Origin: Halomarina litorea
GTDB lineage: Archaea > Halobacteriota > Halobacteria > Halobacteriales > Haloarculaceae
NCBI RefSeq assembly: GCF_024227715.1
Contig: NZ_CP100448.1
Coordinates: 2,811,655-2,875,654 of the forward strand
Reading direction: 5' to 3'
DNA: 64,000 nucleotides
The translations under genes and the position numbers were made by a program. The notes beneath the pieces were generated by a model. It was given only the letters and a program-made list of their open reading frames with translations. It was not told the DNA's origin and did no database searches. Shown piece after piece: positions 54,159 to 58,387 of this stretch; the first letter of the stretch is position 1, and each line of letters starts with the position of its first letter.

Positions 54159-54164
54159 TTTATA
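54159..54164 (+). promoter_or_regulatory. TATA box of the argG leader transcript
   Basis: TTTATA within CAGGTTTATACTC. It is the best TATA element in the gap before argG. A start about 26 bases downstream falls at 54188, two bases before the ATG of the arginine-rich leader ORF, and about 180 bases before argG itself. A weaker GATACA lies nearer argG (54345-54350). Confidence 0.75.
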
Positions 54165-54189
54165 CTCGTCGGGCAGTACCGATTCAGTA

Positions 54190-54270
54190 ATGACACGGGC
54201 CCACTCCACCGACGGCGCGTCGAGCGGTGGGTACCGCCTCGTTCTCCTGCGACCGCGACCGGGCCGTTAG
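54190..54270 (+). CDS. Candidate arginine-rich leader peptide upstream of argG (26 aa)
   Basis: ATG at 54190, TAG at 54268-54270. Five of 26 codons are Arg (positions 3, 16, 21, 23, 26; CGG, CGC, CGA, CGA, CGT), and three fall in the last six (ending RPRPGR). The ORF starts where the upstream TATA box predicts transcription to begin, so it would be translated as a leaderless message. The 3' end, CGGGCCGTTAG, is identical in sequence and frame to the end of a second Arg-rich ORF at 57233-57283. GGGCC-GTTA-GGCCC forms a hairpin over its stop codon. It is inferred to sense charged tRNA-Arg and to affect argG; there is no direct evidence of translation. Confidence 0.6.
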   Translation: MTRAHSTDGASSGGYRLVLLRPRPGR

Positions 54271-54274
54271 GCCC
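54261..54274 (+). promoter_or_regulatory. Hairpin covering the stop codon of the argG leader ORF
   Basis: GGGCC-GTTA-GGCCC, five base pairs with a four-base loop; the loop and the first base of the second arm include the TAG. A ribosome that reaches the stop would disrupt it, one stalled earlier at the CGA codons would not. Confidence 0.5.
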
Positions 54275-54321
54275 AACTCTACTCACTTCCCAGTCGGTTT
54301 CCGCATCGCTCTCGACGACCA

Positions 54322-54340
54322 CGCGCCGCGTTCCGGCGCG
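54322..54340 (+). promoter_or_regulatory. Perfect GC hairpin just upstream of argG
   Basis: CGCGCCG-CGTTC-CGGCGCG, seven G-C pairs, 28 bases before the argG ATG. It may act in transcript folding or termination control; there is no T tract after it. Confidence 0.55.
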
Positions 54341-54368
54341 CCCTGATACACCAGCACACACCACACCA

Positions 54369-55636: not shown

Positions 55637-57127
55637 ATGGTCGGCGACGGCGAGGGGGGAAGCTCCTCCGGGAGCCGGACGGCGTCCGGCGACAGCGACG
55701 TGGTGCGCAGGGAGCGCTTCAGCGGCGGCCCCGCCCGCGAGTTCCTCTCGTCGCTCGCCGCCGACGAGCGCATCTTCGACGCGGACCTCGCGGTGGACCG
55801 CGCGCACGTCGTGATGCTCGCCGAACGGGGAATCGTCGCGAACGACGAGGCGGGCGACATCCTCACCGCCCTCGACATCGTGGAGGTCGCCGGCCACGAC
55901 GACCTGCCGAACGGCGAGGACGTCCACGCGGCCATCGAGACGGCCGTCATCGAGGAGATCGGCCCCGTCGGCGGGAAGATGCACACCGCCCGCTCGCGCA
56001 ACGACGAGGTGGCGACGTGCATCCGCTATCGCCTCCGCGAGGACCTGCTGGATGCCGTGGAGGCGACCGTGACGCTCCGCGAGGCGCTGCTCGACGTGGC
56101 CGCGGAGCACACCGAGACGGTGATGCCCGGCTTCACCCACCTCCAGCCCGCCCAGCCGACGACCGTGGCCCACTGGTGCTGTTCGTACGCGCAGGCGCTC
56201 GCCCGCGACACGGCCCGCCTGCTCGACGCGTACGAGCGGGTCAATCGGTCGCCGCTGGGCGCGGCGGCGTTCGCGGGCACCACCTTCGACGTGGACCGCG
56301 AACGCGTCGCCGCCCTACTCGGGTTCGACGGCGTGCTGGAGAACGCGATGGACGCGAGCGCGACGCGCGACTTCCTCGTGGAGTCGGTGAGCGCGCTGGC
56401 GACGCTCTCGACGACCCTCTCCGGTCTCGCCGAGGACCTCGTCGTCTTCGCGAACAAGGGGTACGTCGCCCTCTCTGACGACTACTCCTCTACCTCCTCC
56501 ATCATGCCCCAGAAGGTGAACCCGGACACCCTCGAACTCGTGCGGGCGACGGCGGGCGACGCGAGCGCGGGGCTCAACGGCCTGCTGACGACGCTGAAGG
56601 GTCTGCCCCGTGCGTACAACCGCGACCTGCAGCGCGCGACGCCCCACGCGTGGGAGGCGGTCGACGCCGTGACCCACGCGACGGACGTCGCCGCGGGCGC
56701 GGTGGCGACGGCCGACTGGCCCGAAGAAGTACTGGAGGACGCCGCGAGCGAGGGCTTCTCGACGGCGACGGGGGTGGCGGACCTGCTGGCGGCGGGCGGC
56801 CTGCCGTTCCGGACCGCACACGAAATCGTCGCCAAAGCCTCTGAGAGCGGCGCGGACTACGACGCCGTCGCGGCGGCGGCCGAGGAGGTACTGGACGACC
56901 CCCTCTCGACGTACGCCTCCCGCGAGGCGGTGGAGGCGGCGCTGGACCCCGTCGAGAACGTCGCGTCGCGCGACTCGCTGGGTGGTCCCGCCCCCGAGGC
57001 GGTGGCCGCGCACGTCGAACGCGCCGGGACGGAACTGGCCGAGGACGCGGCGGCCCTCGAAGCGCGCCGCGAGGCGCTGGCGACGGCGAACGCGGCGCTC
57101 CGCGAGGAGGTGAACGGGTATGCGTGA
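55637..57127 (+). CDS. argH: Argininosuccinate lyase
   Basis: Protein of 496 residues. It splits argininosuccinate into arginine and fumarate. MHTARSRNDEVATCIRYRLRED, TVMPGFTHLQPAQPTTVAHW and the signature SSTSSIMPQKVNPDTLELV are all present; the first Ser of the mobile loop (SSIMP) is the usual catalytic residue. The N-terminus is extended by ~25 Ser/Gly/Asp-rich residues. It starts two bases after argG. The last gene of the argG-argH pair; the gap of 230 bases after it contains the second leader-like ORF. Confidence 0.97.
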   Translation: MVGDGEGGSSSGSRTASGDSDVVRRERFSGGPAREFLSSLAADERIFDADLAVDRAHVVMLAERGIVANDEAGDILTALDIVEVAGHDDLPNGEDVHAAIETAVIEEIGPVGGKMHTARSRNDEVATCIRYRLREDLLDAVEATVTLREALLDVAAEHTETVMPGFTHLQPAQPTTVAHWCCSYAQALARDTARLLDAYERVNRSPLGAAAFAGTTFDVDRERVAALLGFDGVLENAMDASATRDFLVESVSALATLSTTLSGLAEDLVVFANKGYVALSDDYSSTSSIMPQKVNPDTLELVRATAGDASAGLNGLLTTLKGLPRAYNRDLQRATPHAWEAVDAVTHATDVAAGAVATADWPEEVLEDAASEGFSTATGVADLLAAGGLPFRTAHEIVAKASESGADYDAVAAAAEEVLDDPLSTYASREAVEAALDPVENVASRDSLGGPAPEAVAAHVERAGTELAEDAAALEARREALATANAALREEVNGYA

Positions 57128-57232
57128 GTCGACGGTCGTGACCGCGCGCACCCCCGCCGCCCCTGCCGTCCGACGACCGGTCCCGGGTGCCCGACCGCCG
57201 CCGGCTTCGGCCGGGACTGAACTACCACACCG

Positions 57233-57283
57233 ATGATACACCGAAATCGAATCCGACGTTCGCGCCGTTCTGCGGGCCGTTAG
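57233..57283 (+). CDS. Candidate arginine-rich leader peptide upstream of lysW (16 aa)
   Basis: ATG at 57233, TAG at 57281-57283; the peptide is MIHRNRIRRSRRSAGR. Seven of 16 codons are Arg (CGA x3, CGT x3, CGC x1). Six of these seven are A- or T-ending codons, against the strong GC3 preference of the genome. It ends with CGGGCCGTTAG, the same 11 bases and frame as the argG leader ORF. A T-rich tract (57298-57310) begins 15 bases after the stop. No TATA box is seen just upstream, so it may be reached by transcripts from argH. Inferred role: arginine-dependent attenuation of the lysW-argF genes. Confidence 0.6.
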   Translation: MIHRNRIRRSRRSAGR

Positions 57284-57297
57284 CTCTGCTTCGGTCG

Positions 57298-57310
57298 TTA
57301 ATTTTCTTTG
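57298..57310 (+). promoter_or_regulatory. T-rich tract after the lysW leader ORF: terminator or TATA element
   Basis: TTAATTTTCTTTG, in a very GC-rich region. Archaeal RNA polymerase terminates at oligo-U tracts, so it could be the termination site of an attenuator. It could equally be a TATA element for lysW, with a start near 57328. A second element, GTTAAG (57325-57330), is about 30 bases from the lysW ATG. Confidence 0.5.
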
Positions 57311-57357
57311 ACACAATCGCTGGTGTTAAGTGGCTATGGTGGTCAGTACCGAGTACA

Positions 57358-57522
57358 ATGGTAGACTGCCCCGAGTGTGGGGGAAGCGTGACCCTGCACG
57401 ACGACGCTGAGACCGGCGAGATCATCGACTGCGGGACGTGTGGAGCCGAACTCGAGGTCATCGGGACGGACCCCGTCGAACTCGAGACGGCACCCGAACT
57501 CGAAGAGGACTGGGGCGAATAG
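57358..57522 (+). CDS. lysW: LysW, amino-group carrier protein
   Basis: A 54-residue acidic protein. Two CxxC pairs (C4/C7 in DCPECGG and C25/C28 in DCGTCGAE) bind zinc, and the C-terminus ends EDWGE. The last Glu is the side chain that LysX links to the substrate amino group; the rest of the pathway acts on the carrier-bound intermediate. Found with lysX and argC, argB, argD and argE in the same order as in archaea that make lysine and/or arginine this way. Here argF, argG and argH show that arginine is the product. Confidence 0.96.
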   Translation: MVDCPECGGSVTLHDDAETGEIIDCGTCGAELEVIGTDPVELETAPELEEDWGE

Positions 57523-57523
57523 A

Positions 57524-58387
57524 ATGCGTGTCGGCGTGCTGTACTCCCGGATTCGGCGGGACGAGAAGCTCCTGCTGAACGAACTCCGGTCGCGCGACCA
57601 CGAGGTGGCGAAACTCGACGTCCGCAAACTGCGGTTCGCGCTGGACGAACCGCCAGCCGAACTCGCGGAGTGCGACGTCGTCCTCGACCGCTGTCTCGCC
57701 ACCAGCCGGAGCCTCTACGCGAGTCAGTTCGTCGACAGCTACGGCGTCCCGGTCGTGAACGGCCCGGAGACGGCCGAGGTATGCGCGGACAAGGCCAAGA
57801 ACAGCCTCGCGCTCTCGAACGCGGGCGTCCCCACCCCCCGGACGGAGGTGGCGTTCACGAAGGAGACGGCGATGGAGATCATCGAGGACTTCGGTTACCC
57901 CTGCGTCCTCAAGCCCGTCGTGGGGTCGTGGGGTCGCCTGATGGCGAAGATCGACTCGCGGTCGGCGGCCGAGGCCATCCTCGAACACAAGGCGACACTC
58001 GGCCACTACGAGCACAAGGTGTTCTACGTCCAGGAGTTCGTCGAGAAACCCGGCCGCGACATCCGCGTCGTGGCGACGGACGGCGAACCCGTGGCCGCGA
58101 TGACGCGCACCTCGGACCACTGGCTGACGAACGCCGCGAAGGGCGCGACGGCCGAACCGTTCGAACTGGACGACGAGGCACTCGACCTCGTCGAACGCGC
58201 CAGCGAGGCCGTCGGCGGGGGCCTGCTGGGCGTGGACCTGATGGAGACCGGCGAGTCCGGCTATACGGTCCACGAGGTCAACCACACGGTGGAGTTCAAG
58301 GCCCTCTCGGACGCGACGGACGTGGACGTGGCCGCCCGCGTGGTCGACTGGCTGGAGACGAAGGTGCCCGCGGAGGTCAGCGCATGA
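57524..58387 (+). CDS. lysX: LysX/ArgX, LysW-glutamate (or aminoadipate) ligase
   Basis: Protein of 287 residues in the ATP-grasp fold. KNSLALSNAGVPTPRTEVAFTKE, YPCVLKPVVGSWGRLMAKI and FYVQEFVEKPGRDIRVVA hold the ATP contacts, and the metal-binding end is GVDLMETG...VHEVNHTVEFK. It ligates the amino group of glutamate to the terminal Glu of LysW, so the ArgX name would be more exact if only glutamate is used. The ATG lies one base after the lysW stop codon. It overlaps argC by four bases. Confidence 0.94.
   Translation: MRVGVLYSRIRRDEKLLLNELRSRDHEVAKLDVRKLRFALDEPPAELAECDVVLDRCLATSRSLYASQFVDSYGVPVVNGPETAEVCADKAKNSLALSNAGVPTPRTEVAFTKETAMEIIEDFGYPCVLKPVVGSWGRLMAKIDSRSAAEAILEHKATLGHYEHKVFYVQEFVEKPGRDIRVVATDGEPVAAMTRTSDHWLTNAAKGATAEPFELDDEALDLVERASEAVGGGLLGVDLMETGESGYTVHEVNHTVEFKALSDATDVDVAARVVDWLETKVPAEVSA

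Follow-up and report, generated by a model that had tools for sequence, protein, structure and literature searches.

Introduction

Among the closest described systems to the locus considered here are the bacterial trp, his and ilv attenuators, in which the biosynthetic unit is preceded by a short ORF with many codons for the end-product and a T tract follows the stop codon of this ORF. No archaeal arginine attenuator was found in the papers searched, and the main text of a paper on the arg genes of Natrinema gari holds no co-transcription data. In Haloferax volcanii promoter elements have been mapped and 72% of transcripts are leaderless, the haloarchaeal leaderless promoters having a BRE (CGAAA) and a TATA element (TTWT) (PMC4983044), and its intergenic terminator motif consists of a run of T that stops at a C (PMC7237163).

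The window, that is the whole stretch of 64,000 nucleotides from Halomarina litorea that was analysed, includes an arginine-biosynthesis cluster (argG, argH, lysW, argX and further arg genes). A first-pass annotation had proposed that a 16-codon ORF in the 230 bp gap between argH and lysW belongs to an internal attenuator on transcripts coming through from argGH. This mini-ORF is like the bacterial attenuators in being a short ORF enriched in codons for the regulated amino acid ahead of a biosynthetic gene, with a T tract after its stop. It differs from them in being archaeal, in having no promoter ahead of it (the conserved promoter is that of the downstream gene, lysW, and lies downstream of the ORF), in lacking a conserved terminator/antiterminator pair or any terminator and alternative hairpin tied to translation (a hairpin is present in its own sequence only) and in being limited to part of one genus.

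Results

Features of the argH–lysW gap

The gap and its gene order are retained by nearly all haloarchaea examined, and the gaps of about 110 haloarchaeal loci were aligned on the lysW promoter. For the GTDB genus of the source organism eight genomes (G000–G007) were compared, one of which is matched by the Halomarina halobia locus. The features of the region are as follows.

55637..57127, + strand, argH, the gene upstream of the gap
57201..57214, + strand, GC hairpin CCGGC-TTCG-GCCGG in the argH 3' flank
57233..57283, + strand, mini-ORF MIHRNRIRRSRRSAGR (ATG 57233, TAG 57283), Arg in 7 of 16 codons
57234..57238, + strand, TGATA motif overlapping the mini-ORF start codon
57275..57296, + strand, possible hairpin GGCCG...CGGUC over the stop and before the T tract, not conserved
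57277..57283, + strand, CCGTTAG motif about 45 bp upstream of the lysW TATA, holding the mini-ORF stop
57298..57310, + strand, T-rich tract TTAATTTTCTTTG in the conserved AT-rich stretch before the BRE, a possible argGH terminator
57316..57331, + strand, lysW BRE/TATA, ATCGCTGG...TTAAGT (haloarchaeal consensus TTCGAAGGnTTTAAGT)
57358..57522, + strand, lysW (argW), amino-carrier protein of LysW-dependent arginine synthesis
57524..58387, + strand, argX (lysX-type ligase)

An Rfam scan of the window gave a tRNA as its sole match and no match in the argH–lysW gap.

Arginine content of the mini-ORF

The mini-ORF and its seven Arg codons are present at 57233–57283 as first described. Three of these codons are CGA, three CGT and one CGC. 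In the 39 well-supported genes of the window (901 Arg codons), usage is CGC 55.7%, CGG 29.0%, CGA 6.9% and CGT 4.7%, so the genes of the window bear out the statement of the first-pass annotation that six of the seven are of non-preferred types: CGA and CGT together make up 11.5% of genic Arg codons, and six in seven has p = 1.5e-5 under genic usage. The same choice has p = 0.012 under intergenic composition, which is a far better fit. The chance of at least seven Arg in the 15 codons after the ATG is 0.004–0.017 (local dinucleotide models, given an open frame), and the Arg share of the mini-ORF is reached by two of the 69 ATG-started ORFs of 10–30 codons in the window. An in-frame TGA lies five codons upstream of the ATG and no Shine–Dalgarno sequence was found ahead of it. 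That there is no TATA box ahead of the ORF also holds, no TATA-like sequence being present 20–45 bp upstream of the ATG, where the GC hairpin occupies the stretch instead.

The lysW promoter and its upstream motifs

The strongest conserved signal of the aligned gaps, reaching up to 2 bits, is a BRE/TATA element (consensus TGATAaGTTCGAAGGnTTTAAG) that is conserved over the 110 loci. In the window it lies at 57316–57331, between the mini-ORF and lysW, and was overlooked in the first-pass annotation. The lysW promoter resembles haloarchaeal leaderless promoters in having BRE and TATA about 30–34 bp before the start codon (ATG 57358). The distance from TATA to lysW ATG is 33 bp in 71 of 110 loci, similar to the 30–34 found for the argG leader ORF described below, and as this is the spacing of a leaderless haloarchaeal promoter, lysW is predicted to be leaderless or nearly so. 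In the clade of the source organism the lysW TATA is weaker (TTAAG vs TTTAAG elsewhere), so that read-through from argGH may matter more there, although this is only suggestive.

What goes beyond the leaderless type is the presence of CCGTTAG and TGAYA upstream at fixed spacing. Across haloarchaea the lysW upstream loci carry CCGTTAGmGG at a set distance, about 45 bp before the TATA, and the TAG of CCGTTAG[AC]G(G) lies at −44 to −46 from the TATA in 102 of 122 distinct sequences, whatever the reading frame. TGAYA stands at the same distance as the TGATA of the window in 65 of 110 loci, and across haloarchaea occurs in two places, about 95 bp upstream and immediately before the BRE. We know of no regulator for either motif. 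No CCGTTAG-like motif was found that the argG promoter has in common with the lysW upstream region. In the gaps of three species of the genus (L087, L088 and L089, from G004, G002 and G001 respectively), all of them without the Arg ORF, perfect 8-bp inverted repeats such as TTTGCAGAACGTCTGCAAA are found where the TGATA motif stands.

The T tract and RNA hairpins

The T-rich tract is where it had been reported, beginning 14–15 bases past the mini-ORF stop. It had been read as a possible oligo-U termination site, and the TTTTC that it contains does fit the H. volcanii motif and is shared with the Haloferax T-stretch terminators (PMC7237163). The tract differs from those terminators in overlapping the AT-rich tract of the promoter: T makes up about 50% of positions −30 to −19 across the 110 loci, which makes it part of the conserved promoter pattern. 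Enrichment is weak, a T run ending in C being found in 43 of 110 loci vs 31 expected, so that the tract may act as argGH terminator, with weak support from these sequence counts.

The GC hairpin in the argH 3' flank is a stable fold in most haloarchaeal loci (GTCCCC...GGGGAC type), its region being more stable than shuffled sequence (mean z −1.35, with 63% of loci below −1). No U run follows it immediately. The hairpin over the mini-ORF stop has z −1.27 in the window and a mean z of −0.25 over 110 loci; it is thus not conserved, not even in G006. No covarying helix was found around CCGTTAG. When the GC-hairpin and mini-ORF regions of 102 loci were folded jointly, no consensus structure came out, which for the GC hairpin is probably due to misaligned loops.

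Conservation of the mini-ORF outside and inside the genus

An ORF of at least eight codons with an in-frame ATG ends at the TAG of CCGTTAG in 14 of 110 loci, and in 74 there is no in-frame ATG before it. Outside the genus the TAG frame has 1.85 Arg per 15 codons and the two remaining frames have 1.92 and 1.80. With so few ORFs and no Arg excess in the TAG frame, the idea that haloarchaea in general keep an ORF in frame up to CCGTTAG was rejected. The mini-ORF takes the first letter of its ATG from the A preceding TGATA, and its TAG forms the last three letters of CCGTTAG. Since ORFs at the conserved TAG are few and there is no Arg excess outside the genus, the alignments indicate that these boundaries are frame-independent DNA (or RNA) motifs rather than the ends of a conserved cistron.

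Inside the genus a gap-free 16-codon ORF is present in four of the eight species, with 7 (G000), 10 (G003), 9 (G005) and 7 (G006) Arg codons, and G007 has a shorter, nine-codon form (MIHRVRSRR, then stop) with Arg at positions 4, 6, 8 and 9 as in the ORF of the window. Conservation of the putatively regulatory Arg codons thus extends to four of eight species and, in the shorter form, to a fifth, the Arg ORF being missing in G001, G002 and G004 and in the rest of the order. Counted by codon phase, CG dinucleotides in the four ORFs are distributed 7/2/0, 7/1/1, 10/0/0 and 9/0/1, almost only at codon positions 1–2. The sequence of the window differs by 37–49% from those of G003, G005 and G006. 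Against G006, 25 of 51 positions differ and yet each has seven Arg (neutral mean 2.3, p about 0.002–0.003). Neutral simulations starting from the window's own sequence (first- and second-order composition models) gave a mean of about 15 Arg over the other three species vs 26 observed (p = 0.003–0.007, or 0.002–0.005 when open frames were required), a comparison in which the species are not independent because G003, G005 and G006 form a clade. Retention of Arg in the genus is moderate sequence-based evidence for a lineage-specific translated ORF.

An Arg-rich leader ORF at argG

A second Arg-rich ORF of the cluster, ahead of argG, served as comparator (loci L112–L144 and L187–L226; own region 54159–54368).

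54190..54270, + strand, argG leader ORF MTRAHSTDGASSGGYRLVLLRPRPGR, 31 nt after the TATA at 54159
54261..54274, + strand, hairpin GGGCC-GTTA-GGCCC over the argG leader ORF stop

Nine haloarchaeal families contributed 73 regions upstream of argG, and 69 of these hold an Arg-rich ORF (median 29 codons); the most Arg-rich ORF was chosen at each locus, so that a few assignments (e.g. L193 and L216) may be wrong. In 53 of the 69 the ATG lies 30–34 nt after a TATA-like element. The last 10 codons contain 4.23 Arg, compared with 0.71 and 1.97 for the two other reading frames; CGA accounts for 48% of Arg codons. RRRRPGR and RRPGL are common C-terminal sequences of these ORFs, whose stop lies in a hairpin, GGGCC-loop-GGCCC, which shows compensatory changes and has varying loops (GTTA, TCCT, GTTTCTA, GGTA). 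From these sequence patterns the argG ORF looks like a haloarchaea-wide, ancient arginine leader peptide. It is proposed that ribosomes stalled on its Arg codons would mask the hairpin and that ribosomes finishing translation would free it.

The lysW mini-ORF is like the argG ORF in being Arg-rich, in ending GGC CGT TAG (in the window's own genome), in its use of CGA, the favoured Arg codon of the argG class, and in belonging to the same pathway. It is without the TATA 30–34 nt before the ATG (the GC hairpin stands where this would be expected), the order-wide conservation and the covarying GGGCC/GGCCC stop hairpin of the argG leader; only GGGCCGTTAG is shared, the 3' arm being missing (CTCTGC from 57284 onward). 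The attenuator idea is a far better fit at the argG leader than at the lysW mini-ORF.

Discussion

We think it likely, though by no means certain, that the site is a conserved region upstream of lysW that serves the regulation of its promoter, with the mini-ORF overlaid on it. Under this reading, 57201–57357 would comprise the 3' tail of the argGH unit and then the upstream regulatory region and promoter from which lysW–argX is read. Transcription of lysW would start from its own BRE/TATA, most likely giving a leaderless or nearly leaderless mRNA, and CCGTTAG, TGAYA and the AT-rich tract, fixed relative to the promoter, would be putative binding sites for a presumed regulator. The T tract may in addition end argGH transcripts. 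TGATA would supply the ATG of the mini-ORF and CCGTTAG its TAG, the Arg-rich filling between them being limited to part of one genus. The positions of the motifs, the promoter and the lack of ORF conservation are read from the sequence, and the transcription start site, the regulator and termination at the T tract are what we infer. Since lysW has its own conserved promoter downstream of the mini-ORF, its mRNA need not contain the mini-ORF at all, and a transcript begun at that promoter would lack it. The mini-ORF probably does not function as a lysW attenuator. As its ends coincide with conserved promoter motifs and it is confined to close relatives, the most it could be is a leader peptide of recent origin. 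What a reading in terms of DNA motifs alone does not predict is the in-phase CG and the retained Arg within the genus.

That the Arg-rich ORF arose purely by chance in CG-rich intergenic DNA, as a frame without function shared by descent only, is quite possible, if short of probable; its standing overlaps with that of the regulatory-region reading, since a chance origin is the form which that reading takes when the ORF has no role. In favour of chance, conserved motifs supply both ends of the ORF, the single-species probability of 0.004–0.017 applies to an ORF chosen post hoc, and codon choice is nearer to intergenic composition than to genic usage. Chance does not readily account for four species holding 7–10 Arg in frame at 37–49% difference, which the simulations reach in 0.3–0.7% of cases.

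A lineage-specific, recent Arg leader peptide acting on argGH read-through transcripts is somewhat more doubtful. In such a model scarcity of Arg-tRNA would slow the ribosome at the CGA and CGT codons, masking the stop hairpin and letting polymerase run through the T tract and on into lysW; with ample Arg the ribosome would leave and the transcript would end at TTTTC. This would accommodate the 16-codon ORFs with 7, 10, 9 and 7 Arg and the short form in G007, the p of 0.002–0.005 for Arg retention, the position of the window's own hairpin (57275–57296) immediately before TTAATTTTC, the argG precedent in the same cluster and the T-stretch termination of H. volcanii (PMC7237163). The model is opposed by the absence of a promoter or Shine–Dalgarno sequence for the mini-ORF, the lysW promoter downstream of it, a stop hairpin that is not conserved even in G006 and the absence of the ORF from three of eight species of the genus and from the rest of the order. 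As to the internal attenuator of the first-pass annotation, what stands is the rare kind of its Arg codons, the lack of a promoter ahead of the ORF, the fit of the T tract to the H. volcanii motif and the keeping of Arg in sister species beyond neutral expectation; the separate lysW promoter, start and stop codons that belong to frame-independent conserved motifs, the lack of a conserved hairpin and the absence of the Arg ORF outside part of the genus tell against it. Its supposition that transcripts come through from argGH fares similarly, as no promoter precedes the ORF and read-through is possible but a conserved lysW promoter lies between the ORF and the gene. Were the mini-ORF to work as a leader peptide, it would mean that attenuators arise anew in Archaea.

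The likely presence of a leader peptide at argG raises the prior for a second one at lysW. That the cluster has two, an ancient leaderless argG peptide and a recent one in the argH–lysW gap gating argGH read-through in part of the genus, seems to us unlikely, marginally more so than the recent leader peptide taken by itself; if true it would represent ribosome-mediated attenuation in Archaea. A reading of the whole gap as an RNA element (a 3'-UTR or leader RNA made up of GC hairpin, TGATA and CCGTTAG in the argGH or read-through transcript) is very improbable, for although 63% of loci have a GC hairpin region of greater stability than shuffled sequence, covariation showed no helix around CCGTTAG, the alignments gave no consensus fold, Rfam had no match in the gap, and the motifs keep their spacing to the promoter, as DNA sites do.

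Whichever reading applies, a conserved lysW promoter architecture with two upstream motifs has been located, and the weak case of the lysW mini-ORF can be set apart from the strong one, the haloarchaea-wide argG Arg leader ORF with its stop-overlapping hairpin, which brings ribosome-mediated control in Archaea within reach of direct tests in Haloferax. A carA leader was considered as a second regulon member in the window's own genome and rejected, there being no Arg-rich leader ORF of the argG kind at carA in this genome. The region upstream of carA in the same genome (L247) has a palindrome-like sequence around ACGAATTTCGTAA, near a putative divergent Lrp-type regulator gene.
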